From contig OY855903.1 of the NCBI GenBank assembly GCA_963693305.1, positions 32,021,598 through 32,085,597 of the forward strand: a stretch of 64,000 nt of DNA, written 5' to 3'. The notes under the pieces were generated by a model, which did not search any database, was not told the DNA's origin, and worked only from the letters and a program-made list of their open reading frames with translations. Below are positions 34,791-59,110 of the stretch, one piece after another. Every line of letters starts with the position of its first letter. The first letter of the stretch is position 1. The position numbers and the translations under genes were made by a program. The stretch comes from Meandrina meandrites (taxonomy: Eukaryota; Cnidaria; Anthozoa; Scleractinia; Meandrinidae).

Positions 34791-34824
34791 AAATTATTGT
34801 TTTTGTTTTAAAACTAAACTTTAA

Positions 34825-35868: not shown

Positions 35869-36199
35869 TGGTTGTAAATATTTTTTCACTGATACTGTAC
35901 TGTCCTCGTGTATAACAATTTAATAGAAACCAACCTTGCGAATTTTGTTCATGCGAAACGAATAACATGAATAACACGATATTATATTTCGCATCTCGAG
36001 TCTACAAAACTAGGAAAAAACTTCTAACTAGGAGCTAACACAATGAACATCATTTCCGAAACAAACTCTAACAAGGCAGTTGAAAAAGTCTGAATAAATA
36101 TTGCCGCTTTTCAGTGAGTCATCCATCACTTAGCCCCCTTTTTATATTTACTACTCGTGTTTTGTTTGTAAACTGATATAAACTGATTCTCTTTTAAAG

Positions 36200-39951: not shown

Positions 39952-40342
39952 ACTCCTCCATTATGTTGGAAAATGTGAACACTTCATGAGAACAACAAAA
40001 GTATGATTGACAAGTGCTGGATGGCGGCGAGGTTTTATAGGCCTCTTTTTGTTTCTGCTTTTTTCATTCCTAATACTTACCTTTATCATTTACATAATTT
40101 TTTTACAACTTAACAGAAATTATATATCATTTTAATAAAGTGAGTTTTTTGTATTTTAAAAGTGAGCGAAAATTTTACATTTGGAAACATCAAAAGGAAG
40201 ATGTACTGGAAGTGGTCGAAAACAAAAAAATCAAAACAACCTACGTAAATAATGCATGCTTGGCTTCAATTAAACTCACCAGAATGGTGCACACGAAGAC
40301 AGCACATCATCAGGCTCCTGACATCATGAAACAATATTTAAA

Positions 40343-41407
40343 ACTTTGTACAGTCAATTATTGACTCTTGGAATTATTTCTTCAGTTGGCACATAACGTG
40401 GTTGGATTAGATTGCGTGACACAACTTTCAAATCAACGTTCAAGCCGATGTACCGGTATTGTGTTCGATTAATTTCTTCGGTTGCGTTGCCCGCTACTTT
40501 CTTTCATTTGTTCAGATTATCAGAATCATATGGTTTGTGCAAAGTGTTTTATGGGCAATGGTTTCCATTCAAAACCTTTTGCGAATACTATGGTTGATGA
40601 AACCAGAAAGGAATGCGAAATCTAATTACCGGTACGTGGCGGACTTGACCTTGTGCAGTTGTCTTGCAGGTAGGCGACAGTATATATATTTTTGACTAGC
40701 TGGTGAGGTTTCCGGGTCTTAAATGATGTTTTGTTGTGTAAGCTGATATAAAGAAGTTTTGTTAAGCTAGGATGTTTGCGAAATATTGTGTTATTTATGC
40801 TGAATTTCATTCGCGTGAGCGACTTTCCTGTTCCAATGTAAATAAACATGTTCGCAACAACGGTAAAGTTGACGCCTGGCTGTGCAAAAAGTCCGCTTAA
40901 ACCACAACATGTTTTTACATTTCCATGCTCTTTGACTTCTTTTTAGTTGGTATGGATACAAATATTACGGGGAAGTAGAAGTAGTTGGACTTTTGCGCAA
41001 TGGCTCGTTAAAAATGTGCATTTTTGAGCCGTTGGCATTTATGGCGAAGTAGGCTGCAAACAAAAAATTATTTCGTATTGTAAGTTTCTTTTAAACGAAC
41101 CTAAATTGTGTGCTTTGTATAAATAAAGGTCCAATTTAATCCAGGAAAGCTAAAACAATTCCAAATATTTTGCAATTTTGAAGCGGTGAACTCGACAATT
41201 TTCCTATTTTTCACTTGTCGCCATTGCTAAAAATAGGCCAGTGGCGGTCCAATCGAAAAAAAATCATAAAAAATTTATTTTGCGGTATTTGCAGAAACTA
41301 AGGTGATTTCATTTGCTTTTGAATTAAGATAGACTCGTGGGCAAAGTTTAAAGGAAATTGTGTTCTCGATCCGAAATACAACAGACCGGAGTTATGGCGA
41401 CTGCCTC
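40343..41407 (-). repeat. Right terminal inverted repeat of the TTAA-flanked element
   Basis: This is the counterpart of 34825-35868. It ends only about 25 bp from the 435-bp module that begins the neighbouring polymerase element region, so the two long-inverted-repeat elements are virtually adjacent. Confidence 0.75.
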
Positions 41408-41431
41408 TTAATTTCTTGTGTCAAACTAGAC

Positions 41432-41866
41432 CGATAGTAGTATAAGAATAGGGCTTTTGCAACAGGGCGCATGCGTAAGGGCGTAAGGGGCGCTCATGAC
41501 GTCATTATCCCCCTTGGGGGATAAGGTCACTTCCCCTTTTGGAGGATGACATCATCGGTTGGAGGGGCGTCTGCGCAGGGGCGTAAGGGTGTTCATGACG
41601 TAATTCTCCATTTTATTCTGAGGATGACATCATAGGTTAAAAATAGACGGATGATGTAATAGAATACTTTTAGAGGATGAATCTTACCTTTTCCTACGTC
41701 TGTGTTTGTCGTCCGAAAATAGATCTAGAGTAGATAAAAATATTTTGATATTTGACATTGATATTTCTGTGATTAAGTAGGGTAACCTCGTAATACGATA
41801 AAAATTATCTTTTTCAAGACTGAATTACTTTTTATTTCGCGTTGGAGTGTGCCCTGCAGACCATAA
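41432..41866 (+). repeat. Extra outer copy of the 435-bp CRE-rich module
   Basis: This is a direct duplicate of 43205-43640, present at the outer edge of the left arm only. The two copies share the ends CGRTAGTAGTATAAG and GCAGACCATAA and differ by scattered substitutions. It replaces the sequence that continues beyond the right arm. It may be an independent miniature element or the result of recombination between arms. Confidence 0.75.
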
Positions 41867-42349
41867 GCCAGACGATCACACTAAACGAACTACTATTGTT
41901 ATTGCTTCATACTGCAAGTCTATCTGCTATTAATGGTAGCTGGATATATGAAGAAGTTAGAATTTTACTTCCCTTCTTTATTTGCTGAGGGGTGGGGTCA
42001 TGTAAAGAAACTAAATTAATGTGATTGAAAAGGAAACACTGAATAGGAAGTCATTGTTTGTTATACATGTACAGTGGATTTTAATTCCTCATTTGCTATT
42101 GTGTTCTTCAGGCGATGCGTTTGAGCCAAAATACTCAACTTGGCCAATGGAGGAATTAAAAGAGAGAAGAAAGGAACAAAACTGTTTCAATGCCTCGGTT
42201 GCAAAGAATATTATATATGTACATCATTAAATAAACTGGTGTGATGAAAACTATTTGTTTGCTTCTTTTTCACATGCTGATCGTAAAAGGCTGGCCACCA
42301 CGCTGGTCATTAAGGTTAATTTTCTCGTGTCCGGCATGAAAGCTAACCC

Positions 42350-42760
42350 TCACTCTTACTCATCCTTTAAAATACTCTTAACCCTAAAACCCTCCATAAC
42401 CCGTCCATTACAATACCCCTACCATTCATTAAGCACGTGTTGCACCGACCCTAACGAAACCTAAAGCCATCCGTAACATGTCAGTTACAATAACCCTAAC
42501 TCTAAGGCCATCCGTTGAGCGTCCGTTATAATAACCCTACAACAAAAAACCATCCGTTACGTGTCTGGTACAAAAACCCTTACCCTTAACCCGTTCATTA
42601 CTTGTCTGGTATAAAACCCTTACTCTAAACCCGTCCGTTACGCGTATGTTACAATAACACTTACCCTTAGCCGGTCCATTACGTGTCTGTTACAATAACC
42701 CTAACTCTACACCCATCTGTTACATGTCCATAATAATAACCCTAGCCGTAACACAACCTG
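42350..42760 (+). repeat. Minisatellite with telomere-like words in the left arm
   Basis: About nine to ten units of roughly 42 bp with the pattern CCGTCCGTTACGTGTCTGTT, then ACAATAACCCTTACTCTAAA. Units begin near 42350, 42395, 42460, 42510, 42555, 42600, 42640, 42680 and 42720 with variable wording. Each holds a TAACCCT-type word reminiscent of the animal telomere hexamer TTAGGG, but not in perfect tandem. It is mirrored at 56225-56640. Confidence 0.8.
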
Positions 42761-43204
42761 GTTCGTTGTCAGGAGATGGGCACTGACCGGTATATGAAAT
42801 CAGTTCAAAATTATAACGTAAACCACCCTACATAATTCGAAGCATAAAAATGGCTCTATCTTACTCGTGCTCACTATCTTAGTGACACTTTTAACAGCAT
42901 AGACCCTTGTAATAGTCCCCTCCCCAATTCTACCATAAATTTGTTAAAAAATTGTAGCGGGGAGCATGTCCCAGGGGCAAGTTGCAGCGACACGTCCTAT
43001 TCTTTGGCTGATTACTTTAAGCTCATGCAACACAAATTTTGCAGCAATTTTGTTCCTTGAACTCATTAAACTTTGTGGGACGTGTTGCAGGGAAAAATGT
43101 TGCAGAGATGCAATGTCCCATCGTGTAGATGGTTGTGCAACATGTCCCTACAAAATAATTAAATAATGATGGCGACGGTGACGGTGACACCGAGTGCAAA
43201 CAAT

Positions 43205-43640
43205 CGGTAGTAGTATAAGAATAGGGCTTTTGCAACAGGGCGCATGCGTAAGGGCGTAAGGGGCGCTCATGACGTCATTATCCCCCTTGGGGGATAAGGT
43301 CATTTTCCCCTTTTGGAGGATGACATCATCGGTTGGAGGGTCGTCTGCGCAGGGGCGTAAGGGTGTTCATTATGTAATTCTCCATTTTTTTCAGAGGATG
43401 ACATCATAGGTTAAAAATAGACGGATGATGTAATAGAATACTTTTAGAGGATGACATCATACCTTTTCCTACGTCTGTGTTTGTCGTCCGAAAATAGATC
43501 TAGAGTAGATAAAAATATTTTGATATTTGACATTGATATTTCTGTGATTTAGTAGGGTAACCTCGTAATACGATAAAAATGATCTTTTTCAAGACTGAAT
43601 TACTTTTTTTTCGCGTTGCAGTGTGCCTTGCAGACCATAA
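43205..43640 (+). promoter_or_regulatory. CRE/ATF-like site cluster in the left arm
   Basis: Within about 190 bp the module holds TGACGTCA once and several GATGACATCAT or near variants (near 43270, 43320, 43397 and 43450), spaced about 45-75 bp apart. The TGACGTCA palindrome is the CREB/ATF site and TGACATCA-type words are AP-1/ATF-like. The module is kept in both arms and once more at 41432-41866. Regulatory use is inferred from the motifs only. Confidence 0.45.
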
Positions 43641-44394
43641 ATTCGTATTTACACTTCAAATAGTCGCTCAGCAGGGCAAGTGTGATGTATAATGAAAATT
43701 AGAGAAGTCTTTTCACGTATCGATAATATAAAGAACGGCAGATGGAAAGAAATAAAGCAATGGCTCTTGTATTTTGATCTCGTATGAATATAGAATATTC
43801 TTTACAAAATGTAATAATTGAGTTATAAACACTATTTGTTCTGTCTTAACTTGCCTGGTTAGTAGACGATTATTTTACTGACTACGAAGTTTTACTAATG
43901 GGAATTGTTTTGCGTTTCATGCATTTTTCGATTTTCCTCTTAACTTGTATGTTAGTCTTCTAGTAAAAGTAAATGTGTTCACGCTCAACTAAATCGGATG
44001 AAAAATATGTTTACCTTTTTTATCCTCAGTGATTTCGGTCTCACTAAGATTAGAATACGTTTTGACTCAACAGATTCAGTCAAATTTATTACCCGATCTG
44101 CCGTTGTGCAAGCGCGCACGTGTTTATTTCTTTTGATCCAAGTTCTAATTAAGTCACCGAGAACACTAAAACCTATAAAAATGTTTGCGTTTTAGAAATA
44201 AGCCTTCAAGCGAAATCATTGAAGCACATCATTTGCGCAAGCCTGAGTATAGTTACCGTCTAATTGTTTGCGGTCTTGAAAAGAATCCTTTGAAACACCG
44301 TGTTTGCCTATGAACAAAAGCGGTAGCTGCTATTTTCGTATCGACATACTACTGAAAACCGTTTTTTCGCAATTGCGAGGGAAATTAGTTGAAA

Positions 44395-44589
44395 TTAATG
44401 TCTTACTTTGAATGATTGTCCTTCAGTGAACCTTAAAAACCCATTTTTCACCTTTACCACATATGGATTACCGACATTGACCAGGACAGTGCTCCAAAGC
44501 GGCGAAAGGGTATTTGTACGAGCGAGTCTTTTAGGTATTGTGGAATTTGCTGATGCGGGGTTTGACGGGAAAACGGCAACGCGGAACAC
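44395..44589 (-). CDS. Small exon-like frame conserved in both arms (64 aa)
   Basis: The frame is open in both arms (counterpart 54389-54583, plus) with one amino-acid difference. It ends in 'FTEGQSFK' followed at once by GTAAGAC, a good splice-donor sequence, and is preceded by an AG. Composition is protein-like ('VAVFPSNPASANST', 'VVKVKNG'). It may be an exon of an arm-borne or captured host gene. I cannot name the domain. Because the arms are nearly identical, conservation alone does not prove coding. Confidence 0.35.
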   Translation of the reverse strand: MFRVAVFPSNPASANSTIPKRLARTNTLSPLWSTVLVNVGNPYVVKVKNGFLRFTEGQSFKVRH

Positions 44590-45212
44590 TTTTAAAGGTA
44601 TGAAAAGATAGGTTCTTTTAATCAGTGCAGAAAAACGAAGTGGAAATGAACTGATCCGCTTATTATGACTACGAATTCCTTGCTCTTTTTAAAAGCGGTT
44701 TATTCTATTTGTTTACCGTTGTCTAGATACTCGTTGGCATTCAACTGAATGAATTTCTTAGAAGATGACGATCTTGTATTAACATAGACGTCGAAAATTG
44801 GAAACGTTTAACGACTTATAAACTCTTTCTACAGTAAGAAAGTTTTATTTTATCAGTAAAAAGCGAAAATAAAGTGCTGTGAGGTTTGTTGTTTATCTGG
44901 AGTGTGTGAATTTTTGGCTTCGATAATAACCCTTGGGAAACGCGTGTTATAAACGCCTTTGTTTTAGCCGAAACCTCTAATTCTAGAAAATAATTGAGTG
45001 TCAATTAAGTAAACGAGGTAAAATGAGTCCATAAGAGTATTTTAGGGGAAGCCTCCTAATGTAATACCAAAATAACGAGACCATCTTTATGACCTTTATG
45101 AATTTTGCTGTACGATAAATTTCATTTTTGTAAATATAGATTCTTTCAACATATCTTAAACTTTGCGCCATGATAAAGTCAACCCATAAATAACAAACAA
45201 AGCCAAACGCAA

Positions 45213-45422
45213 CTACTTTTTATTATTCATTTCATTCACGGTCAGCCGGTTCGTCCCATCACGAATGTATCTCGAGGTTACTGCTGTTGAATATACTTTT
45301 GAGCGCCTTTGTTCACCGAAAATGTCTTGAAAAGCTCTTTGTTGTAAGGTTTTGTACTTAACATACAATAACGATAATACCTTCAGTACTTTGCGCCGGT
45401 TTGCCAGAGTTAACTGTGGCAT
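45213..45422 (-). CDS. Small basic frame at the inner edge of the left arm (69 aa)
   Basis: It starts 'MPQLTLANRRKVLKVL' and is rich in lysine and arginine (pI clearly basic). The counterpart in the right arm starts at about 53534 with 'MPQLQLANRRKVLKVL'. That copy is cut short near residue 60 because of a 23-bp insertion. The frames point outwards from the core. I recognise no family. Confidence 0.35.
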   Translation of the reverse strand: MPQLTLANRRKVLKVLSLLYVKYKTLQQRAFQDIFGEQRRSKVYSTAVTSRYIRDGTNRLTVNEMNNKK

Positions 45423-45690
45423 ATTTTAACTGATAGGTGTGATAGATGAACTCGCACCCCAGATGTGTTCTTTCTTCTTTTGATCCTTTCAAACAAATAA
45501 CTTTCGTAACAAGAGCTGTTAAAACAATGATGTCATCGCTAAATATACGATCATTACCTTAAAAGCGATGGTGCAATGGCTGGAACTGAACTAGTGCTTC
45601 CTCCCTGAATCTAAAAATAGAAATGATGTTTTCGGAGAGAACTGGGGTGGTTCTTAATTTAGGTGATGATGTAATGCTGTGGTTTTTAAG

Positions 45691-45729
45691 CTATAAAAGC
45701 GAGAGTTATTCGAGCTGCTGCTTCAGTTG
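45691..45729 (+). promoter_or_regulatory. TATA box and initiator of the polymerase gene
   Basis: CTATAAAAGC at 45691-45700 is a consensus TATA box. CTTCAGTTG about 30 bp downstream (45721-45729) resembles a TCAGTT initiator. The polymerase ATG at 45738 follows within about 15 nt, giving a very short predicted leader. The spacing is typical of RNA polymerase II core promoters. Confidence 0.7.
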
Positions 45730-45737
45730 TTAGAAAC

Positions 45738-48700
45738 ATGGATGCTGATCACGAATTAGCAGAGTTAAACATGCAAGAATGGGAAGGCCTATGTCGCTAT
45801 CACCCAATCTCTTCGAGAGATTTGAAAACTCTTCTAGAAGACACCATCAACGAGGTAGATGCGCCATCTCTCGAACACTTCCACCGGCCTAAAAACAATA
45901 AGAAGAATTTTCTCTGCACTCGATGCGAGAGGAATTTTACAAGGAAATACGATTTACAGCGACATATGAAAATACACACGCGGGAAAAAGGATATGGTTG
46001 TTACCTTTGCCCAAGAATGTTTTATCGCAAAGACAAACTTCGACAACACCAAGAAATTTGTCAGAGGAAGGTGAATGATGATCAGTGTTCAAAAGAACAA
46101 TGTCCGACGCAAGTGATCGCTAATGATTGTGGTGTTTTTGGAAACACTATTACTGCACACGAATATCACTTCCGATCTAACGTCTCCAAGAATTTTGTTT
46201 GCACTCGTTGCAATAAACATTTTACAAGGAAATTTGATTTACAACGTCACATGAAGATACATGCTCGGGAGAAGGAGTTTCAATGCAGTACCTGCACTAA
46301 AACCTTTCATCGCTGCGATAAGAAACTCCAGCATGAACAGAACTGCAGAAGACTACAACTGCCAGTAGAAGACAACAGGCTCAATCAGGGAAGCATGGTT
46401 CAGGTCGGTCACGGAGAAAGTAGCCCAACGGAAGAAAGGGAAAATGACGTGTGTGAAAGTGCGCTCAATAGGAATTTGAAAACTGTACAGATGAAACCAA
46501 GGACAAACGAAAAGCACGACTTAACACTCTTCCTAAAAGGAAAGAAAGCAAATATCTTCAAAAACCTGAAAACAGAGCTGAAAGAGAAAAAAGGTGTAAA
46601 ATGGTTTATATCAGTACAAGTAAAAATGGTAAAATATAGGCCAGATGGTCAAGATGAGTTCGCCACACCCCATTTCAGAGGCAACTGCCAGCGACTGACG
46701 AATTTCAACGCGCTCCCCGATCAATACGAAGAATGCGTGGAAAAAATAAAAGAATCATTTCAGAGTTACCAGCGTGAAGGGAGCGGTTGGCAATTGCTAG
46801 AGGTAAGATTACTCCTTTTCTTTTACGACAAAGTTCTTCCTACAATTTGACTCTTTCGTTCTAAATATAAAAGTATTTCAAACTAATAGACTCTAGTGAT
46901 TTCCACTTGATTAATTTTTTTGCCTGTTAGGTGTTGAAATTAGACCTCGGCATTGCTGTGTATACCCCACTCCATGGTTCTAGCTACGTGAAACTTCCCA
47001 AGGAGCTGCATGACAAAAAAGCGATACTGAATATACAGAATGACGATCAAAAGTGTTTCGTCTGGAGTGTACTTGCTGCCTTGCACCCAGTTAATCGGAA
47101 AGATCAACCTCATCGCCTTCACCACTACAGACCTTTTGAAGGAGAGTTGAACGTAAATGGCATTGAATTTCCAGTGAAAGTAAGTGACATACCAAAATTT
47201 GAGAAACAAAACCCAGCGCTGAGCATCAACCTCTTTGGATATGAAGAAAAAGAACTCTTCCCGTTGTATATAACGAAAGAGAAAAAAGAAAACCATGTAA
47301 ACTTAATGCTTATCTCGAGTAATGAGACGAAACACTATTGTTTGATTAGGAATTTAAACAGGTTATTGTTTTCGCTGACCAAATATAAGGGTAAAAAGTT
47401 TTTCTGTGTATATTGTTTGCATGGGTTTGTTAGAGAGGATTTGTTATTAGAACACGAACCCCACTGTAGCAAAAACGGACCGCAAAGAATCAAATTACCA
47501 GACGAAAATAATGATGTATTATATTTTAAAGATGTTCAGAAACAACTTAAAGTACCTTTTGTCATTTATACAGACTTCGAGTCGATTTTAGTGACGTGTG
47601 ACGAGCAAAGATTAGACCCTAGTGTTTCGTTTACGCAGAACACGCAAGTGCATCAACCTAGCGGTTTTTGCTATACGGTGGTTTCTAAGGTAGAGGCTTA
47701 CGATACTGCACCTGTTGTGTATCGTGGGGAGAACGCAGTTGACAAATTTTTAGACCATTTATTGCACGAAGAAAAACGAATTAAGGAAATTTTAGAACAT
47801 GTTGTCCCGATGTCGATTAACAGGAATGAGGAGCAAGCTTTTCAAAGGGCAACACACTGTCACATTTGCGGAGATGTGCTTGACTCTGATCGCGTCAGGG
47901 ATCACTGCCATCTGACGGGAAAGTATCGCGGAGTGGCCCACAGCGATTGTAATCTTAACAACAAGTTTACCAATCGCATACCTGACGTGTTGCATAACCT
48001 ACGGGGCTATGACTCACATCTGATCATGCAAGGGCTGGGAAAATTGAAAGGAGTTCCTATCACCTGTATACCCAACAACTCGGAAAAGTACATTTCGTTT
48101 ACTGTTGGGGACTTGGTTTTCATTGACTCCTTACAATTTATGAATGCTTCTCTTGAAAAGCTTGTCTCCAATTTAGCAAAGAAGGGAGATGGTAAATTTC
48201 GCATACTTAAGAAATACACGCCCGTTGAGAAGGTACTGTTACTCTTGAGAAAGGGGGTCTACCCTTATGAGTATGTGGACAGTTTTCAGAAATTTCACGA
48301 AACGAACCTCCCACCCATTGAAGCATTTTTCAGTACTTTACGAAATGAAGGAATAAGTGTAGAGGATTATGTTCACGCACAAACTGTGTTTACCGAGTTT
48401 CAATGTCAATCACTGGGAGATTATCATGACCTTTACCTGAAATCTGATGTTTTACTGTTAGCAGATCTATTTCAAAATTTTCGCGACATATGTTTAAACT
48501 ATTATCAGCTAGATCCAGCTCACTTTTACACCTCTCCGGGCCTAAGCTGGCAGGCCTGTCTAAAAATGACGCAGGTAGAACTAGAACTCATTACCGACCC
48601 AGACATGTACATTTTCATCGAGGAAGGTCTTAGGGGTGGAGTTTCTATGATATCGAATAGATATTACAAAGCAAACAACCCCTATATAGCGGGCTATGAC

Positions 48701-50056
48701 AAAGATCAGGAGACGAATTATATCATGTATTTAGATGCAAATAATCTTTACGGGTGGGCTATGTCACAACCGTTACCCGATAGTGGGTTTGTCTGGTTGA
48801 GTGAAGACGAAATTGAAGAATTAGATGTATCAAACATCGCCGATGACAGTGAGGAGGGGTACATATTGGAAGTGGATTTGGAATACCCTTGTAGTTTACA
48901 CGAGCGTCACAACGACTACCCACTGGCCCCCGAGAAGATGGTGGTGAAGACCGACATGCTATCTCCCTACTGCGATCAGATAGCAGGTGAATTACACTTG
49001 AAATCTGCGTCAGTCTCTAAACTTGTTCCAAATCTCGACAACAAGAAGAAGTACATTTTGCATTACCGCAATTTAAAGCTCTACCTCAGTTTGGGTATGA
49101 AGTTGACAAAAGTTCACCGGGTTCTCAGCTTCCAGCAATCTTCCTGGCTCAAGTCCTACATTGACTTCAACACCGAAAAGCGAAAACAAGCTTCTAACGA
49201 CTTTGAGAAAGATTTCTTTAAACTGATGAACAATTCTGTCTTTGGGAAAACGATGGAAAATCTACGAAAACGCGTGAATGTTAAACTTGTGAATGATGAA
49301 AAAAAGCTCAAGAAACTGACCGCCTCCCCTTCCTTCGACTACTTCAGAATTTTTGCAAACGAGTTGGCCGCAGTGAACATGAAAAAACCCACGTTGTACC
49401 TCAAACGCCCCATCTACGTTGGCTTCAGCATACTGGACTTGTCTAAAACATTGATGTACGATTTTCACTACAACTATATCAAGGTGAAATACGACAACAA
49501 GGCAACTCTGCGTTTTACTGACACGGACAGTTTGTGTTACAACATACAAACCAAAGACATTTACAGAGATATGCAAGAAGACTCCGAACTGTTTGATACG
49601 TCAGAGTACTCAAACGATCATTTCCTGTTCAGCACGAGCAACAAGAAAGTTCTGGGAAAGATGAAAGACGAGACACACGGAGTTCCTATCGAAGAGTTTG
49701 TTGGTCTTCGACCTAAAATGTACTCATTACTCTATACGGAAAACAGCAAAACGGTTGAGAAAAAAGTGGCGAAGGGAATTGCGAAGAATGTGACAAAAAG
49801 GGAAATAAGACATGAACACTACAAAGAGTGCCTCTTCAACAGAAAGCAGCAGATGGCTTCCATGCACCAAATACGAAGTTTTCAGCACAATGTCTACTCT
49901 ATTAAACTGAACAAAATTGGGCTGAGTCCTTTCGATGACAAACGATATATTTTGGATAACAGTTGTGACTCATTAGCGTATGGACACTACTTATTAAGAG
50001 ACTCTAATTTAGATCAACATGATCAAGAACTGATAGAATTATTAGCGGATTTGTAA
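45738..50056 (+). CDS. PolB: Family-B DNA polymerase with zinc fingers and endonuclease-VII-like block, two exons
   Basis: Exon 1 is 45738-46802 and exon 2 is 46931-50056, joined in phase 0 for a protein of about 1396 residues. Residues 60-80, 88-108, 155-175 and 183-203 form two duplicated pairs of C2H2/C2HC fingers. A further Cys/His cluster is near 514-536. A CxxC...HCH block near 665-697 resembles the HNH region of recombination endonuclease VII. 3'-5' exonuclease motifs are TDFES (Asp570), NLRGYDSH (711-718) and YLKSDVLL (Asp861). Polymerase motifs are DANNLYGWA (Asp957), KLMNNSVFGK (1119-1128) and DTDS (1219-1222). All expected catalytic acids are present, so the enzyme looks intact. 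The layout fits protein-primed PolB of Maverick/adintovirus-like elements. The start follows a TATA/initiator pair. Confidence 0.92.
46803..46930 (+). other. 128-nt spliceosomal intron in the polymerase gene
   Basis: Begins GTAAGA after codon 355 (GAG) and ends TTTTGCCTGTTAG before the GTG codon at 46931. Both flanking frames are in phase 0. Without splicing, exon 1 runs into a stop 16 codons later. The downstream sequence resumes the conserved 'LKLDLGIAVYTPLHG' region at the expected place for this polymerase family. Confidence 0.85.
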
Positions 50057-50061
50057 ATAAA
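50056..50061 (+). terminator. AATAAA polyadenylation signal overlapping the polymerase stop codon
   Basis: The stop TAA (50054-50056) shares its last base with AATAAA, implying a very short 3' untranslated region. The convergent gene ends 288 bp further on. Confidence 0.55.
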
Positions 50062-50343
50062 ATATTTAAGTAATGTCCCGGAGTTGAAACATCTATCTTT
50101 CCCCGCATTTCCTTGATTTCATTACTAAATCAGATCAAAAATGTTCTTGTTTCAAGTCTCAGTAGTTATCCCTCGTTAAGGTGTTGACAATGTAAGGAGA
50201 GTTTAGATGTGGATCACTCCCGGGGTTTATGCAAACATGTGTAAAAGTAATTAGTGGCTATTTCAATAAAACACAATGGATGAAAAAAAACTGTCGTTGT
50301 GTTTGTGTTCCAAAACAAAACGTTGTATCTGTGAACTACATAT

Positions 50344-51055
50344 TTACATCTCCGTAGTGCGAGAGAAAATAACATCCTCATCACTTGAATAATCTTTCTC
50401 ATCATGTTCGATGTTGAGTGGCGATAAATGGAGTGCCACTGACGGTGGTCGCTGTCTTGATTTCCAGCATCGGATGATTGATCGGAGTAAAATCACACTC
50501 GCTGGTATAAACAGCAGAGTACCAACTAGTGTGTAAATGTATGGTATTGCGCGATGATCAACTCCTATTTTCATGATCTGTTTGTGATTTGAAGTATACG
50601 GTGTTTGATTTTTTTCCAGTGCTGAAAGTATAAGTGAGGTGGTTCTGGTGATGAGTCGGTGGCTTTGTAGAGAAGGTGGCTGGAATCTCAGTTGTCTTGT
50701 TGGTCGGGATCTTTTTCATTGAATAAGTACAATCGGAAATTATAGTGATTAATTTGGAAGGTTGAAATCGCTTGACATCGTCACATAACAGCGGATTATT
50801 GTCGCGCAAATCCAAAAGTACAACCCGTGGAAACACTTTGAATAGAGAGGTTAAATTGAGGTGTCGAAGGTTGTTACCACGCAGTAAAATTGAAGTATAG
50901 TTCACCAGGGTAGACTTTGAGTTGTGGCATTGAATATAGATCTCCGTGCATGAGCAGTCGATTATCTCCGATGCTTCATAACAGCAATACTTTCCCTCTA
51001 AGCAGGCGTTAGAATACCGTAATAATATGAACATAAGGAAAACAAGAGCAGACAT
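50344..51055 (-). pseudogene. Leucine-rich-repeat type I membrane protein, one apparent frameshift
   Basis: The upstream frame (51055-50558, 165 aa) has a signal peptide (about residues 1-17) and a cysteine-rich cap (Cys18, 24, 25, 34, 36, 43) like an LRRNT. A short leucine-rich repeat (about 57-90, 'LRHLNLTSLFKVFPRVVLLDL') is closed by Cys90 and Cys108, followed by a Thr/Pro stalk and several N-glycosylation sites. The second frame (50574-50344, 76 aa) supplies a transmembrane segment (about residues 12-30), a basic stop-transfer 'RSIIRCWKSRQR' and an acidic serine-rich tail. The frames overlap by 17 nt, one base out of register. A 7-T run at 50609-50615 is a likely slip site or sequencing error. 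Two overlapping genes are less likely. It resembles a cell-surface receptor or adhesion protein; its role in the element is unknown. Confidence 0.6.
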
Positions 51056-51099
51056 ACTGCTATCTTTCTGGAAACGAGGAATTCGAGATTTCCTTTATC

Positions 51100-51520
51100 G
51101 TGAAATTATTAACTTATTTTATCAGTGATTTTTACATAGATAAGGGAAAACTTTTGTTGAATGACACGCGCGCGCTTTCATATCGCGAACCCACGCACTA
51201 TCTCCACGGGCATTTCCACGCGCGTTCACAAGAAAACACGGAGGTTAAAGAGGCTCTAATGGCCCTTAAGGCTCTTTCGGCCCTTTTATTCCTTATTTCA
51301 ACCGTTCTGTTCTTCAGTAACGTTTATATTAGAAAAGGATGATAATAAAACTCTGTCATTTGCTTCAAGTTAACAACCTGTTAACATGATGCGAAGGAGA
51401 TGTAAGCATTGTCCGATCCCACGCACTATCTCCACGCGTGATTCCACGCGTGCTCTCAGAGAAAAACACAAGCGGATATGTGCCCTTTAGGCCCTTTATG
51501 TCCCTTTGGCCCTATTAATT
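51100..51520 (+). repeat. Imperfect direct repeat upstream of the LRR gene
   Basis: 'CCCACGCACTATCTCCACG' occurs near 51189 and 51418. In both places it is followed by a 'TTCCACGCG' block and then GGCCCTTT-type words (51262-51290 and 51482-51515). The 80-aa plus frame at 51100-51342 spans the first copy and is not preserved in the second, so I do not call it a gene. The segment lies in the likely promoter side of the LRR gene; a TAAAATAA word on the minus strand near 51117 could be its TATA box. Confidence 0.5.
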
Positions 51521-53419
51521 TAGCGAAGGAAACAAATTTCTTCAGTTTTAATTTTTAGGTTTGTGAAAAATTATAAACATGTTTTTCAAAATCTCTTTTT
51601 TGACACGATTTTTTTCTTCAAATGATTTAACCTTAACAATTTTTCTTTTAAATTTTTACCTTTGCACAAAAATATCAAGATATATCTTGCATTTACTCTT
51701 TGCCATTTTCGAAATGTGTTTCTATTCTAATAATTATCTCCACCGAATCCACTATATCATGTCTACATGATTGCATCTTGAGAAATAGAATCATTCCGGC
51801 AACAAGACTTTTTTTTCTCTAAAGGGCAAGGCTATTTTACACCTTTATCAATAACTACGTTTTCAAGTGATTTTACTAATCTCTGAGATGTTAAACTTGG
51901 GAATGATCGAGATGAGACTGTTAAGTGAAATATGAAAACGATTGTTCATTTTGTTTCAAAACTGAACACAAAACTCCCTTTGAATTGTTTACTAATGCCT
52001 CGCAGCAGTTCAAGTTGTATTGGTTGACTAAAAAACTTTCTTACCGTTAAAAGAGTTTATGAGCACTAAACATTTCCTAGTTGAACTATTCTGTTTTAAC
52101 GCTGCTTAATACTTAAGACTTAGAGAATTAGATAACTTAATGATATCCTTCGTTCCTTATAAGCAACCTGCGGAAGAAAAAAGTATGAACTCAAGTAACT
52201 GGCAACGAAAGCGAAAATCTTTTAGCGTAAATATTCGATTACGACTTCAACCTTCGACACTTACTGATAAAAAAAGTGCAAAAAAAAATAGAGCAGTTGG
52301 ATGATAAATCTCTTAGTATACATCTGTATATTTTGTTTTCCAGTACAGCTGAGTAGTTTTATTCGCTGTTTTTGTTTTGACGTGTTTGCGGGATTTTCTG
52401 CCATGATAGTTGATCCACGTAGCTTAATAATTTAATATTCTTTTCATAAAACTTTTAATATAAAGATCATTTGCCAGTCAAAACCTAACAAAGTGTCAAG
52501 TTAATTCCACCTTATAACTAAATTAAATCAAAAAGTTTACAACAAAACATTGTGCTTGTATAGTGTGATCATGTTAAACATTAAAAATTGAAAGCATCAA
52601 AAACAGATTTTCATAATACATTTAGAGCTACTGTATTCAGTAAAGATTAGTATTTTAGTTACTTCATATTTGGAGAAAGCATTTGGAGAAAGCTTCTCAA
52701 TTCAGAGGGGAAGCTTTCAAACTAGGCTCAATGAATATCGGAGACGAAGCGACAAGTTTTCGTGATAGTATCAGGTTATTGAAAAAAAGCCACCTACATT
52801 ATATATTATCTGCGAATATCAATTTCCTTCTTAATTTCCACTCGTGCGCCTTTTGGCCGTTTCTTTTATCTTTCATTTCAGTGAACTTGAGTGGTTCTGA
52901 GTTCACTTTCATTTTAGCTTAATTGGTTTTCTACTCTTGGTCAGCGCAGGAATGACAGAGAATGCTCCTACGATCATTTTGACTTGAATACAATGAATCA
53001 TGCTCGGAGCCGCAATTATTTCGGATCTCTCCGTTAACCTAATTTATTTATTATAATTATCCACAATGTAGAAAACTCACTGCAAGGTAGAGCGAGAAAT
53101 ATTTATGAAAAAAATATTTTTTAGCCTGCTCGCTATTTTTTTTGGTTCAGCTTACAAAGCGAATTTGCCTTTTTTTGCGCCTTTTCATACCATCAGTTAT
53201 CTCAATCACGGTGCTCCCGAGCCAGAGGTTAGTGTTAAAAGTGCCTGATAATAATGATGCAAGGAAAGCTAAGAAATACTAAAAAAAACAAGAAAATTGT
53301 AATATTTCAACTAAATAAATAAAGATTAAGATGTATTTATTTTATACAATGACATCCCTTTTAAACTGACTTGGAAATGTGCTGTTTGAAGGAACCACCC
53401 CATGCATTTCTAGCATAAA
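51521..53419. other. AT-rich non-coding part of the element core
   Basis: No frame with protein-like content is supported. A block near 52025-52075 ('AAAACTTTCTTACCGTTAAA') resembles arm sequence near 54130-54175, possibly a decayed internal copy of arm DNA. This is where further element genes would be expected, yet none is visible. Confidence 0.5.
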
Positions 53420-54388
53420 GACATCAATTCTTTTCACAGCTCTTGTTACGAAAATTATTCTTCTTTAAAGGATCAAAAAGAAAAAGAACACATTTGGGTT
53501 GCGAGTTCATCATTCACACCTATCAGTTAAAATATGCCACAGTTACAGCTGGCAAACCGGCGCAAAGTACTGAAGGTATTATCGTTATTGTATGTTAAGT
53601 ACAAAACCTTACAACAAAGAGCTTTTCAAGACATTTTCGGTGAACAAAGGCGCTCAAAAGTATATTCAACAGCAGTAACCTCGAGATACATTTGTGATGG
53701 GACGAACGATTGAGATGTTACTACTTAACCGGCTGACCGTGAATGAAATGAATAATAAAAAGTAGTTGCGTTGGGCTTTGTTTGTTATTTATGGGTTGAC
53801 TTTATCATGGCGCAAAGTTTAAGATATGTTAAAAGAATCTATATTTACAAAAATGAAATTTATCGTACAGCAAAATTCATAAAGGTCATAAAGATGGTCT
53901 CGTTATTTTGGTATTACATTAGGAGGCTTCCCCTAAAATACTCTTATGGACTCATTTTACCTCGTTTACTTAATTGACACTCAATTATTTTCTAGAATTA
54001 GAGGTTTCGGCTAAAACAAAGGCGTTTATAACACGCGTTTCCCAAGGGTTATTATCGAAGCCAAAAATTCACACACTCCAGATAAACAACAAACCTCACA
54101 GCACTTTATTTTCGCTTTTTACTGATAAAATAAAACTTTCTTACTGTAGAAAGAGTTTATAAGTCGTTAAACGTTTCCAATTTTCGACGTCTATGTTAAT
54201 ACAAGATCGTCATCTTCTAAGAAATTCATTCAGTTGAATGCCAACGAGTATCTAGACAACGGTAAACAAATAGAATAAACCGCTTTTAAAAAGAGCAAGG
54301 AATTCGTAGTCATAATAAGCGGATCAGTTCATTTCCACTTCGTTTTTCTGCACTGATTAAAAGAACCTATCTTTTCATACCTTTAAAA

Positions 54389-54583
54389 GTGTTCCGCGTT
54401 GCCGTTTTCCCGTCAAACCCCGCATCAGCAAATTCCACAATACCTAAAAGACTCGCTCGTACAAATACCCTTTCGCCGCTTTGGAGCACTGTCCTGGTCA
54501 ATGTCGGTAATCCATATGTGGTAAAGGTGAAAAATGGTTATTTAAGGTTCACTGAAGGACAATCATTCAAAGTAAGACATTAA
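54389..54583 (+). CDS. Right-arm copy of the 64-aa exon-like frame
   Basis: Identical to the left-arm frame at 44395-44589 except for one residue (Tyr for Phe near position 51). The same AG/GTAAG context is retained. Coding status is uncertain. Confidence 0.35.
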   Translation: MFRVAVFPSNPASANSTIPKRLARTNTLSPLWSTVLVNVGNPYVVKVKNGYLRFTEGQSFKVRH

Positions 54584-55338
54584 TTTCAACTGATTTCCCT
54601 CGCAATTGCGAAAAAACGGTTTTCAGTAGTATGTCGATACGAAAATAGCAGCTACCGCTTTTATTCATAGGCAAACACGGTGTTTCAAAGGATTCTTTTC
54701 AAGACAGCAAACAATTAGACGGTAACTATACTCAGGCTTGTGCAAATGATGTGCTTCAATGATTTCGCTTGAAGGCTTTTTTCTAAAACGCAAACATTTT
54801 TAAAAGGTTTTAGTGTCCTCGGTGACTTGATTAGAACTTGGATCAAAAGAAATAAACACGTGCGCGCTTGCACAACGGCAGATCGGGTAATAAATTTGAC
54901 TGAATCTGTTGAGTCAAAACGTATTCTAATCTTAGTGAAACCGAAATCACTGAGGATAAAAAAGGTGCACATATTTTTCATTCGATTTAGTTGAGCGTGA
55001 ACACATTTACTTTTACTAGAAGACTAACATACAAGTTAAGAGGAAAATCGAAAAATGCATGAAACGCAAAACAATTCCCATTAGTAAAACTTCGTAGTCA
55101 GTAAAATAATCGTCTACTAACCAGGCAAGTTAAGACAGAACAAATAGTGTTTATAACTCAATTATTACATTTTGTAAAGAATATTCTATATTCATACGAG
55201 ATCAAAATACAAGAGCCATTGCTTTATTTCTTTCCATCTGCCGTTCTTTATATTATCGATACGTGAAAAGACTTCTCTAATTTTCATTATACATCACACT
55301 TGCCCTGCTGAGCGACTATTTGAAGTGTAAATACGAAT

Positions 55339-55774
55339 TTATGGTCTGCAGGGCACACTCCAACGCGAAAAAAAAAGTAATTCAGTCTTGAAAAAGATCA
55401 TTTTTATCGTATTACGAGGTTACCCTACTAAATCACAGAAATATCAATGTCAAATATCAAAATATTTTTATCTACTCTAGATCTATTTTCGGACGACAAA
55501 CACAGACGTAGGAAAAGGTATGATGTCATCCTCTAAAAGTATTCTATTACATCATCCGTCTATTTTTAACCTATGATGTCATCCTCAGAATAAAATGGAG
55601 AATTACGTCATGAACACCCTTACGCCCCTGCGCAGACGCCCCTCCAACCGATGATGTCATCCTCCAAAAGGGGAAATGACCTTATCCCCCAAGGGGGATA
55701 ATGACGTCATGAGCGCCCCTTACGCCCTTACGCATGCGCCCTGTTGCAAAAGCCCTATTCTTATACTACTACCG
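55339..55774 (-). promoter_or_regulatory. CRE/ATF-like site cluster in the right arm
   Basis: Reverse-complement copy of 43205-43640, with TGACGTCAT near 55702 and ATGATGTCATC words near 55523, 55575 and 55650. Because the module is in both arms, any regulation it confers would face inwards from both ends. Confidence 0.45.
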
Positions 55775-56224
55775 ATTGTTTGCACTCGGTGTCACCGTCA
55801 CCGTCACCATCATTATTTAATTATTTTGTAGGGACATGTTGCACAACCATCTACACGATGGGACATTGCATCTTTGCAACATTTTTCCCTGCAACACGTC
55901 CCACAAAGTTTAATGAGTTCAAGGAACAAAATTGCTGCAAAATTTGTGTTGCATGAGCTTAAAGTAATCAGCCAAAGAATAGGACGTGTCGCTGCAACTT
56001 GCCCCTGGGACATGCTCCCCGCTACAATTTTTAACAAATTTATGGTAGAATTGGGGAGGGGACTATTACAAGGGTCTATGCTGTTAAAAGTGTCACTAAC
56101 ATAGTGAGCACGAGTAATATAGAGCCATTTTTATGCTTCGAATTATGTAGGGTGGTTTACGTTATAATTTTGAACTGATTTCATATACCGGTCAGTGCCC
56201 ATCTCCTGACAACGAACCAGGTTG

Positions 56225-56640
56225 TGTTACGGCTAGGGTTATTATTATGGACATGTAACAGACGGGTGTAGAGTTAGGGTTATTGTAAAACACACGTAAT
56301 GGACCGGCTAAGGGTAAGTGTTATTGTAACATACGCGTAACGGACGGGTTTAGAGTAAGGGTTTTATACCAGACAAGTAATGAACGGGTTAAGGGTAAGG
56401 GTTTTTGTACCAGACACGTAACGGATGGTTTTTTGTTGTAGGGTTATTATAACGGACGCTCAACGGATGGCCTTAGAGTTAGGGTTATTGTAACTGACAT
56501 GTTACGGATGGCTTTAGGTTTCGTTAGGGTCGGTGCAACACGTGCTTAATGAATGGTAGGGGTATTGTAATGGACGGGTTATGGAGGGTTTTAGGGTTAA
56601 GAGTATTTTAACGGATGAGTAAGAGTGAGGGTTAGCTTTC
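56225..56640 (-). repeat. Minisatellite with telomere-like words in the right arm
   Basis: Mirror of the 42350-42760 array, here reading as AGGGTTATTGTAAC and ACGGACGGGTTTAGAG type words in ~42-bp units. Confidence 0.8.
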
Positions 56641-57118
56641 ATGCCGGACACGAGAAAATTAACCTTAATGACCAGCGTGGTGGCCAGCCTTTTACGATCA
56701 GCATGTGAAAAAGAAGCAAACAAACAGTTTTCATCACACCAGTTTATTTAATGATGTACATATATAATATTCTTTGCAACCGAGGCATTGAAACAGTTTT
56801 GTTCCTTTCTTCTCTCTTTTAATTCCTCCATTGGCCAAGTTGAGTATTTTGGCTCAAACGCATCGCCTGAAGAACACAATAGCAAATGAGGAATTAAAAT
56901 CCACTGTACATGTATAACAAACAATGACTTCCTATTCAGTGTTTCCTTTTCAATCACATTAATTTAGTTTCTTTACATGACCCCCCCCCCCCCCCCCCAG
57001 CAAATAAAAAAGGGAAGTAAAATTCTAACTTCTTCATATATCCAGCTACCATTAATAGCAGATAGACTTGCAGTATGAAGCAATAACAATAGTAGTTCGT
57101 TTAGTGTGATCGTCTGGC

Positions 57119-57240
57119 TGAGTGTAGTTCTCAAAACAACTGTTGTTGGTGACTGATGTTTTGACAACCTGTTTGGAAGTCATCTTTAGAGTAAAGTATA
57201 AAGTTGTTGTCAGTCAATAATGTTCCGGGAAAGAAAACTT
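57119..57240 (+). repeat. Repeat continuing past the right arm, with hammerhead-like core
   Basis: It continues a repeat that starts inside the arm (about 57092, 'GTAGTTCG') and recurs at about 57948-58080 and 60728-60835. On the minus strand 57157-57190 reads CTAAAGATGAC...GTCAAAAC, a decayed form of the CTGAAGATGAC...GTCGAAAC seen at 60797-60829. The left arm lacks this continuation. Confidence 0.5.
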
Positions 57241-57371
57241 CCTACAAACACAAACCTATAAAAGAACCTCACAGATGAACCCAGAGAAATATGAGTGATA
57301 TTCATAACATCTAATTTTATTTCATTTTCACCTACCATTGGTATTTCTTCTTCTGAATAAATGACGCCCCT

Positions 57372-58085
57372 TCAGTCGCATTCTTTGCAACCGAGGCATT
57401 GAAACAGTTTTGTTCCTTTCTTCTCTCTTTTAATTCCTCCATTTACCAAGTTGAGTATTTTGGCTCAAACGCATTGCCTGAAGAACACAATAGCAAAATG
57501 AGGAATTAAAATCCACTGTACATGTATATCAAACAATGACTTCCTATTCAGTGTTACTTTTAAATCACATTAATTGCCTGTTTATGTAGTTTCTTAGTTA
57601 GGGCCTGTGTAATAATTATCAGTTTGGTAGGGGGGGGGAGGGGTTAAGAAATGCAACAAGGCCAAAAATTTACTTAGCCCCATCCCCTGGACAAAAGGCC
57701 CCATATTTTAATAAGATATGATAGGGGACCGTTCTTTTTTTATTGGGTAGGGGGAGCTAGTGGTATTTCATATGTAGTCTCTGAAATATCTTATGACCCC
57801 CTCTCCATCAGAAATATTTTATCCTTGTCCACCTAATAATACTAATTTCTTTAGATAACCCCCCCCCCCCCAAATAAAAAAGGGAAGTAAAAATATATCC
57901 AGCTACCATTAATATCAGATAGAATTGCAGTTTGAAGCAATAACAATAGTACTTGGTATAGTGTGATCGTCTGGGTGAGTGTAGTTCTCAAAAGAACTGT
58001 TGTTGGTGACTGACGTTTTGACAACCTGTTTGGAAGTCATCTTCAGAGTGAAGTGTAAGGTTGTTGTCAGTCGATGATGTTATAA
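57372..58085 (-). repeat. Second, diverged copy of the element's outer end
   Basis: 57378-57560 matches 56772-56950, and 57850-58085 matches 56981-57230, in the same order and orientation. An unmatched ~290-bp segment (57575-57850) separates them. It looks like the end of an older, related element or a tandem end duplication next to the intact one. Confidence 0.75.
58013..58046 (-). ncRNA. Hammerhead-like core (degenerate)
   Basis: The minus strand reads CTGAAGATGACTTCC, then AGGTTGTCAAAAC. The CUGANGA box is intact. GAAA has become AAAA. GAC/GUC and CC/GG pairs could form stem II. Cleavage is unlikely in this copy. Confidence 0.3.
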
Positions 58086-58489
58086 GTCTGGTCTGTTAGA
58101 GTTGATTGGTCAGTTTAGCGGTGCTGTTAGTGGCTGTAACACTCGTGTTTAATTCATCAAGAGTAATTGGTTAGTTTTGATTCGTCTATTGTTAGTCAAA
58201 TTAAATCGTTCTGTTTATCAGTTGTGTTTATGCCATAAATAAGTCGTTTGTAAGGTGCCTGTAGTTGTTGACATCGGTTGATAGGCATTCGTTCCAAGTT
58301 TGTGTACCAGCTTTCTAGAGTCATCGCCAAAATAGTTCGTACTGTAGGGTAAACATTCAGCAGAGCCTCAGTCAATATTGTGACTAGTTAGTCCATGGCA
58401 TCCAGAAATGTGATTGTTGTTAGGCATTCTGGTAGAACGTTTGCACTTTAATAGATACAGTCATTACAACACTCAAAAGTAATTATTTT

Positions 58490-59110
58490 GGGTGGATCCC
58501 CCATACAGACCATATTTTTTGCCTGCCCCCCCACTCCCCAAATCCCACCAATCCCCCAACCTCATAAAAATAGAATGGTCCCAAATGGAGCATGATGATA
58601 GTGTCTTCAGATAAGGACAGGCAAATTACAGAGGGCTGACTTGCCACCACCAGAATAACTCCGGGGGGAATACTCCTTTAATTTTACTATGGGGGTCAGC
58701 AGCAAAGTCCCTGAGACTGTTGACCTTGAATTCTGACCCTGTTCTAGAGAAAAATTGCAAAAAAGGTAAATGACAACTGAAAGCAAGGGACCGTGGACGA
58801 AAATGCTGCTGGTGTACGTAGGAGCTCCTGACAGCTCTGATCAGCCAAAAATAAAATACAAAGACAATAAACTGCAAGGCTGACACTACGTAGAAATGAA
58901 AAACCTTAACGGGACAACGACCCTGTTCCACACAAGACAGTACACCGTACAAGAAAGTGTTTGTCATGCCATGTTTTATTCTTTGCCGACATCGAGTTTT
59001 CACCTTATGGCCTATTTGGGTAAAAACGATCATTATGCAGCTGAGAAAGCACAGTTGGCATAACATTGAACTTGTTTGTATCATTATACTGGAACTGAAA
59101 CATTATCTGA
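58490..59110. other. Repeat-like segment with an unassigned 152-aa minus frame
   Basis: The minus frame 59084-58626 is open for 152 aa with several hydrophobic stretches but has no recognised family, and it ends in low-complexity Trp/Pro/Leu sequence. The C-rich stretch at 58510-58560 resembles an interspersed repeat. Not enough to call a gene. Confidence 0.3.

Follow-up and report, generated by a model that had tools for sequence, protein, structure and literature searches.

Within the window, the whole 64,000-nucleotide stretch of Meandrina meandrites DNA that was analysed, lies an element of Polinton type at 43209-55770 (12,562 bp), which starts with AGTAGT, finishes with ACTACT and carries a spliced polymerase gene, a membrane-protein gene and a non-coding core between long inverted repeats (Table 1). 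The polymerase gene opens with a zinc-finger frame of 370 aa and continues, after a likely intron, in an intact frame of 1,041 aa; the Oculina predicted protein P0003 is continuous over the proposed splice junction, GSGWQLKEVLKLDLG, which bears out the intact, spliced family-B polymerase of the preliminary description. On sequence comparison the enzyme is a B-family polymerase of Polinton/adintovirus type, being 51-52% identical over nearly its full length to the adintovirus polymerase of the Parasteatoda house spider adintovirus. Pfam DNA_pol_B_2 did not match it, nor did any other Pfam polymerase profile match the window protein. The HNH match of exon 2 is weak and under the Pfam cut-off, and the putative OTU-like part was recognised by eye alone from a Cys...His arrangement, a profile search giving no match. 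Viral contigs searched with the single polymerase yielded no match, and searched with a polymerase alignment yielded one distant contig, L001, at 41% identity. The one membrane-protein gene described for the core is present as a type-I frame but is frameshifted in the window, where its TM part falls in a separate frame; relatives such as P0125 are unbroken. Its predicted layout comprises a signal peptide, a Cys-rich leucine-rich ectodomain, a stalk, a TM segment and an acidic tail. PDB sequence searches were empty or gave chance matches only, and Rfam found no match in the window.

Table 1. Features of the element and its borders, in window coordinates.
Feature	Position	Strand	Basis or remark
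Target-site duplication ACCGAT, left copy	41430..41435		End comparison and empty site
431-bp stump of left repeat, true left end of insertion	41436..41866	+	98.8% to the end of the right repeat; ACCGAT just before
Inverted copy of right flank 55771-57119, interpreted as break-repair scar, not element	41867..43208		99.1% to flank; C8 copy without such a stretch
Left terminal inverted repeat, complete copy	43209..45534	+	Begins AGTAGTATAAG; 98.28% identity to 55770-53420; outer end matches end of C8 copy
Polymerase gene exon 1, C2H2 zinc fingers	45738..46802	+	Open reading frame and domain reading
Predicted 128-nt intron, GTAAGA...TTAG, phase 0	46803..46930	+	Junction agrees with P0003
Polymerase gene exon 2, endonuclease-VII-like HNH and B-family DNA polymerase	46931..50056	+	Open reading frame and sequence comparison
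Type-I membrane protein gene, frameshifted in window	50344..51055	-	Two frames, 50558-51055 and 50344-50715 (TM part)
Stretch common to window and region past membrane gene of C6 virion-bearing relative	51338..51581		Detectable C6 homology stops there
Non-coding core	51600..53420		Parts recur at 6/6 dispersed virion-less loci; not found in C6 virion-bearing copy
Right terminal inverted repeat	53420..55770	-	Ends ATACTACT
Target-site duplication ACCGAT, right copy	55771..55776		End comparison and empty site

The preliminary description had read the arms as near-identical terminal inverted repeats of about 3.7 kb, and 41866-45534 and 57119-53420 are indeed inverted copies of each other (97.65% over 3,702 columns), but only 2.33 kb of this is the repeat of the element, the rest being right flank and its inverted copy. 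Other armed copies were sought and their ends aligned, as had been proposed, and 41866 and 57119 were dropped as termini when a copy on C8 revealed the real ends. This independent copy (12,275 bp, read whole, with target duplication GACCAA and flanks unrelated to those of the window) has its two ends, bordered by a 6-bp duplication, at the positions that correspond to 43209 and 55770, which sets the length of the real inverted repeats at 2.33 kb, with 98.3% identity between them. The insertion proper in the window opens at 41436, and the 6-bp ACCGAT stands outside both 41436 and 55770. Its empty target site occurs 54 times in the genome with one to three mismatches (none exact, 3/54 with a single mismatch) and 0 times in the control. 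An assembly artefact, a case that the preliminary description had raised against itself, is not the source of the arms: they are 1.7% apart and are found again both in adjacent units of the array and on other chromosomes.

The outer ~1.3 kb of the apparent left arm is flank sequence copied into a damaged left repeat. A first arm probe fell inside this duplicated flank, and its 40 genome matches were rejected as copies of the element. The window sits within a tandem array, so its near-identical copies, which share flanks, are segmental. Among three array copies the polymerase dN/dS is 0.6-1.0, based on 10-27 changes, and 2/8 near-full-length polymerase copies on the C1 array and C28 contain a stop codon; with the frameshifted membrane gene, these figures make the window locus itself look dead.

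Beyond the array, seven dispersed loci carry the polymerase at 92% identity or more, six of them virion-less. Arms flank the polymerase on both sides at four of these six and on one side at the other two (40 of 72 candidates scored), further armed loci lying on C3 (arms at 11219323 and 11229588), C6 and C1. A candidate copy spans C6:15492719-15505196, and terminus pairs of 4.8-5.5 kb also occur. Besides C8, all five remaining virion-less loci keep the virion-less core past the membrane gene, at C1:29.4 with just 73-83% identity. Target duplications were read at two virion-less copies, those of the window and C8. The seventh locus is a 15.6-kb element on C6 (26623908-26639537, target duplication AGAAAG), which has the polymerase (92%), the membrane protein and a 23-bp terminus in common with the window type and carries an rve integrase with a chromodomain together with a capsid gene; no arms were detected in it. 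Within pairs of the common terminus, 1/108 MCP matches and 1/112 integrase matches listed were found, both in this C6 element. Two other Polinton-like insertions, ins1 and ins2, have 5-bp rather than 6-bp duplications; they were dropped as virion-bearing elements, the frames found in them being polymerase and integrase-like only.

That the core has no recognisable integrase, ATPase, protease or capsid gene was upheld by Pfam and tblastn searches, in the arms as well as in the core. Pfam gave no match below E 0.07 in six frames of the window core and arms, and found no rve integrase there, the identical search detecting rve in the C6 relative. Because Pfam also misses the window polymerase, the C6 capsid frame and the by-eye protease and ATPase frames of same-genome elements, the decisive negative test is tblastn. 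With 92 open frames from same-genome elements as queries (the capsid frame backed by separate evidence, the ATPase and protease frames named by eye), it turned up no integrase gene, no packaging ATPase, no protease and no capsid, and neither a Hexon gene nor a chromodomain integrase, in the window or the C8 copy, the two virion-less elements read end to end and tested directly. Furthermore, copies combining the same arms with genes for integrase and capsid, which the preliminary description had named as the case against it, did not appear in the genome search: 0/108 capsid matches listed (88 of 160 candidates scored) and 0/112 integrase matches listed (112 of 1,986 candidates scored) fall within an armed locus. 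With these shares of the candidates scored, a diverged gene may be present at loci other than the window and C8.

Comparison of virion-less loci shows the polymerase to be under purifying selection, dN/dS between the window and C8 being 0.168 for exon 2 (dS 0.21) and 0.247 for exon 1 (dS 0.30). In the polymerase tree C8 groups with the virion-bearing C6 copy (99/86), represented by a 705-aa piece, and the window falls outside, so some of the measured selection may date from ancestors with virion genes; this origin is opposed by exon 1 and by the non-coding core.

We propose that the window element probably belongs to a non-autonomous Polinton/Maverick (adintovirus-like) lineage that has kept its own polymerase and is integrated in trans. 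The element has retained a putative module for replication, formed by the zinc-finger/HNH/B-family polymerase, together with a gene for a type-I membrane protein and long inverted repeats whose ends show the Polinton motif. Its own polymerase would copy it into linear DNA with inverted ends, and an integrase supplied by those Polintons of this genome that bear virion genes would recognise the AGTAGT ends and insert it, generating a 6-bp duplication of the kind observed. Mosaic identity suggests that copies recombine with one another and with virion-bearing elements. At the window, the element may have been inserted into one unit of the tandem array and then broken in its left repeat; the scar is consistent with healing of the break by copying that ran along the right repeat and out into its flank, after which the unit would have been amplified along with its array. 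A Polinton derivative without virion genes was among the readings offered by the preliminary description, and the end motif, the 6-bp duplications, the empty site and the virion-bearing C6 relative, which matches the window element in polymerase type, membrane protein and 23-bp terminus, argue for it.

The strongest of the alternatives reverses the direction of change, with the virion-less element as the older stable state and the C6 copy as a chimera of this polymerase module with the virion/integrase block of another Polinton family. Virion genes are present in just 1/7 dispersed copies of the window-type polymerase, and at 10 other loci a C6-type integrase (87-90%) adjoins a C6-type capsid match (81-90%), none of the ten, among the matches listed, lying within 750 kb of the 23-bp terminus or 800 kb of a window-type polymerase. 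Against this chimera, capsid genes are common in Polintons (46/72 full-length plus 13 split in PMC4028283), which makes loss in the virion-less line the default, and we consider the reversed order rather unlikely.

It is improbable that the element is a nuclear linear-plasmid-like replicon, maintained by its own polymerase and landing in chromosomes by rare accident; the selection on the polymerase between virion-less loci, the inverted ends and the failure to find an integrase in the window or C8 copy would suit such a replicon, but two loci have exact 6-bp duplications, the end motif is that of integrase-mobilised Polintons and the 23-bp terminus is held in common with an integrase-bearing element. 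More improbable still is a dead deletion remnant, in which a single Polinton lost its genes and all copies are its segmental duplications. The near-identical copies with common flanks and the weak constraint among the three array copies are what such a remnant would leave, but it is contradicted by the C8 locus, with its unrelated flanks and own target duplication, and by the armed loci on C3, C6 and C1. An inverted segmental duplication or assembly artefact surrounding an ordinary polymerase gene is already refuted: 1.3 kb at the outer end of the arms really is duplicated flank, but the empty site, the target duplications and the polymerase armed on both sides at four other loci oppose it.

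The lineage may, with somewhat less than an even chance, be a Polinton satellite: a persistent line without capsid or integrase that replicates with its own selected polymerase, lives off the integrase of virion-bearing Polintons and perhaps off their particles, exchanges modules with these helpers and spawns smaller forms, possibly the six terminus pairs of 1.3-3.0 kb that have no polymerase among the matches listed. A polymerase selected without integrase or capsid would mark a satellite-like, helper-dependent element. Polintons stand between transposons and viruses, and the element bears on whether they survive as replicons after losing the virus shell. As this genome holds virion-bearing and virion-less states of one polymerase lineage, with common termini and traces of exchange, the transition between the states can be dated and compared.

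Protein-primed linear plasmids combine a polymerase with inverted ends and have no capsid, as does the window element, which unlike them is integrated with target duplications. With Polintons/Mavericks it shares the B-family polymerase, the AGTAGT...ACTACT ends, the terminal inverted repeats and the 6-bp target duplication, (AGT)2//(ACT)2 with 6-bp TSDs being the commonest vertebrate Maverick end motif according to PMC8097293; it differs in that integrase, ATPase, protease and capsid were not found in it, and in having repeats of 2.2-2.3 kb and a length of 12.3-12.6 kb for its type, against the 15-20 kb given for Polintons in PMC4028283. Its polymerase resembles that of adintoviruses nearly end to end, whereas the Hexon and chromodomain integrase that define this group together with an OTU-bearing polymerase (PMC11071296) were not found in it. 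A search of the open-licence PubMed Central literature for non-autonomous Polintons or Mavericks under such names returned nothing. The closest counterparts are the 9/72 Polintons without MCP, protease and ATPase in PMC4028283, where morphogenesis genes are likewise lost in concert; the window element stands apart by its long arms and its retained membrane protein, and perhaps also by having no detected integrase. As capsid-less Polintons are thus already published and self-replication is something we infer, the new class of self-replicating element first suggested was too strong a claim, and the window element is a new variant within Polintons rather than a new class.

The element integrates with a 6-bp duplication, and its copies share their termini. 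The flanks were read for two virion-less copies, that of the window and that of contig C8, the latter starting AGTAGTATAAG and ending ATACTACT. GACCAA stands on either side of the C8 copy, whose flanks are unrelated to those of the window copy, and its ends have their window counterparts at 43209 and 55770. ACCGAT lies immediately outside window 41436 and 55770, with its reverse complement, ATCGGT, preceding 43209. The empty site, that is the flanks joined by a single ACCGAT, occurs 54 times in the 551-Mb assembly (56 contigs) at up to three mismatches (no exact occurrence; one mismatch at 3, two at 50 and three at 1), and a reversed-pattern control occurs nowhere. The inverted arms of the preliminary description, 41866-45534 against 57119-53420, are real and 97.65% identical, but their full 3.7 kb does not belong to the element, since 41867-43208 repeats the flank at 55771-57119 in inverted orientation, at 99.1% identity.

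The window locus carries a scar and has been amplified with its array. In the simplest account the original insertion would start at 41436, its left repeat would have broken 431 bp in, and synthesis templated by the right repeat would have carried the broken end outward, beyond that repeat and through 1.35 kb of the right flank, before rejoining. Repair of this kind accounts for both the inverted flank copy and the 3.7-kb arms described earlier. As for the array, window position 1 recurs 75.5 kb downstream at C1:32097083, where the neighbouring unit matches nearly the whole window, with insertions, at 99.09% over 61,418 aligned columns (13 collinear rows weighted, other rows left out). Because of these array repeats and a left flank common to five loci (L003-L007), the near-identical C1 and C28 copies that we compared are segmental rather than transposed. 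The macro tandem repeat, whose copies are often separated by 65-105 kb, occurs on five or more large contigs as well as several small ones. In C1, C4 and C14, out of four large contigs of known length, it sits near the middle, and it is perhaps a candidate centromeric array. Two neighbouring array units hold Polinton-like insertions, ins1 and ins2, with integrase-like frames and a polymerase about 48% identical to that of the window.

Coordinates of the element's relatives and of neighbouring features
Feature	Location	Remarks
Window	C1:32021598-32085597	
Second virion-less copy	C8:27377921-27390195	12,275 bp
Virion-bearing element	C6:26623908-26639537	15,630 bp; inverted repeats 214-232 bp (88%); target-site duplication AGAAAG
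Dispersed polymerase loci	C8:27383414, C6:26633013, C3:11224864, C6:15497195, C6:30639726, C1:18984104, C1:29385565	at least 92%, among matches listed
Terminus pairs, 1.3-3.0 kb	C1:20464375, C2:3074611, C5:7740952, C5:14783908, C6:22806162, C10:30758258	
Terminus pairs, 4.8-5.5 kb	C2:43480812, C7:20295639, C12:13018480, C14:11258702	shared 23-bp end
Empty site, occurrences	C1 2, C3 1, C4 16, C13 15, C14 5, C21 1, C36 1, C44 2, C48 4, C49 6, C50 1	
Macro tandem repeat	window 1-64000; C1 ~30.4-32.3, C4 21.5-23.0, C13 12.9-14.9, C14 12.6-13.4, C3 16.4-17.0 Mb	
ins1 (L014/L015)	C1:31955345-31970633	~15 kb; 5-bp duplication CATCA; inverted repeats 131 bp
ins2 (L027-L029)	C1:32154905-32169794	~15 kb; 5-bp duplication GGTGA; inverted repeats 263 bp
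Insertion L026	C1:32137586-32141382	3.8 kb; inverted repeats 1.1 kb (91%); position in window ~34790
Second inverted pair	window 34821-35893 and 40323-41411	86% identical; adjoins the element on the left
Frame resembling Penelope-like reverse transcriptase	window 10619-11107	recognised by eye

The spliced polymerase noted earlier holds, with two exons and, between them, a predicted intron of 128 nt whose splice ends are standard; database relatives P0001 and P0002 both begin at one and the same residue of exon 2, and predicted protein P0003 reads through the proposed junction. Among named proteins its nearest relative belongs to the coral Oculina patagonica (85%); together with the Oculina and Porites relatives of the C6 capsid protein, this makes a stony coral the probable host. 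The same-genome search listed 46 matches (best 44 of 2,033 candidates scored), 19 of them at 92% or more, and 12 of these 19 fall within C1 30.6-32.3 Mb or on the small contig C28; among the other 27, 26 stand at 51-54% and one is a 60% piece of the C1:18.98 copy. Between loci the polymerase is under purifying selection. In the 1,012 codons compared in exon 2, window and C8 differ by 112 synonymous and 83 non-synonymous changes (dN/dS 0.168); their exon 1 gives 0.247 (351 codons). Window against C6 gives 0.204, and C8 against C6 0.189 (705 codons). Among the window and two array copies dN/dS is 1.0, 0.8 and 0.6, from 10, 25 and 27 changes. The left and right repeats of one copy diverge by 1.7% (window) or 2.0% (C8), far below the synonymous distance of 0.21, so that most divergence predates the insertions, provided the repeats were alike at insertion. 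Window and C8 are the closest pair in exon 1, C8 and C6 past ~46.6 kb, and across non-coding 52220-53469 the identity of window and C8 is 97-99.8%, against 69-92% for their repeats. A mosaic of this kind suggests that copies have recombined, and it makes any simple tree less secure.

A true-repeat probe (window 44200-45500; 47 matches, best 40 of 72 candidates scored) shows the polymerase bracketed by inverted arms at C8, C3, C6:15.5 and C1:29.4; C6:30.6 and C1:18.99 have a single arm, and C6:26.62 has none among the matches listed. At four further places (C6:6.49, C5:13.72, C9:11.69, C2:34.09) there is an arm but the 15 kb around it contain no listed polymerase. At all five dispersed loci besides C8 and C6:26.62, the 1.2 kb past the membrane gene matches the virion-less core of window or C8 (at C1:29.4 at only 73-83%) and is matched by none of the C6 virion frames. 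The terminus pattern occurs at 59 places at up to two mismatches (control 0), and a pattern of the 23-bp terminus at 28 (control 1). Among the convergent pairs are those of C8 (12,275 bp) and C6:15.49 (12,478 bp) and pairs of 20.6 and 23.8 kb on C1, besides six short pairs of 1,347-2,967 bp and four intermediate ones of 4,782-5,451 bp. No polymerase, integrase or capsid match in the lists falls inside the short or intermediate pairs; the short ones may represent MITE-like forms of the family.

The C6 element shares with the C8 copy its first 23 bases, identical at one end and with one mismatch at the other, and encodes the window-type membrane protein and polymerase, the latter with one internal stop. 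It also encodes a chromodomain-bearing rve integrase (rve 2.7e-13), a PC4 protein and a major capsid protein, whose nearest named relatives are from Oculina and Porites, those in Porites lobata being labelled 'Major capsid protein' and 'Capsid protein'. P0163, which is exactly the C6 capsid protein, lies with P0004 and P0125 on one 418,895-base contig in the protein database. C6:26.62 is the only terminus pair to hold a capsid match (1 of 108 listed, best 88 of 160 candidates scored) or an integrase match (1 of 112 listed, best 112 of 1,986). Lists of this depth may have missed a diverged gene at armed loci other than those read. We compared 92 open frames of at least 90 aa, from the C6 element and pieces of ins1 and ins2, by tblastn with window 40000-59000 and the C8 locus. 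Window matches were confined to the zinc-finger/polymerase frames and the membrane gene, together with antisense shadows of these exons, and to a segment at 51338-51581; the C8 element gave only the same kinds of match, with one chance-level match (E 0.005) beyond its borders. As a cross-family control, ins1 and ins2 frames reach only the C6 polymerase and integrase and miss its capsid, so the negative result is most powerful with C6 frames. None of the armed loci examined yielded a virion or integrase gene.

We propose that the element's own polymerase would copy it, that integrase would be supplied in trans, and that the membrane protein may act at the host surface or membrane. Among the matches listed, C6-type integrase (87-90%) occurs at ten other loci, where a capsid match stands 1.8-7.3 kb away, the nearest window-type polymerase over 800 kb off and the nearest family terminus over 750 kb off; virion-bearing Polintons able to lend integrase therefore exist in the genome, and module exchange is likely. 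The membrane protein has a signal peptide, six cysteines before one transmembrane segment near residue 169, and an acidic tail; its gene is broken in the window and gives dN/dS 0.35 between C8 and C6. Superinfection control or entry is perhaps its role, at a guess. Database protein P0158 combines a Parvo_coat-type domain (precomputed PF08398), a domain linked to phospholipase A2, with part of this family, and could be a gene-prediction fusion of neighbours.

Full-text searching of open-licence PubMed Central found no paper on non-autonomous Polintons/Mavericks. Capsid-less Polintons are already known, 9 of 72 in PMC4028283, so the window element is a variant. In it no integrase was found either, the arms measure 2.2-2.3 kb and a membrane gene is retained.
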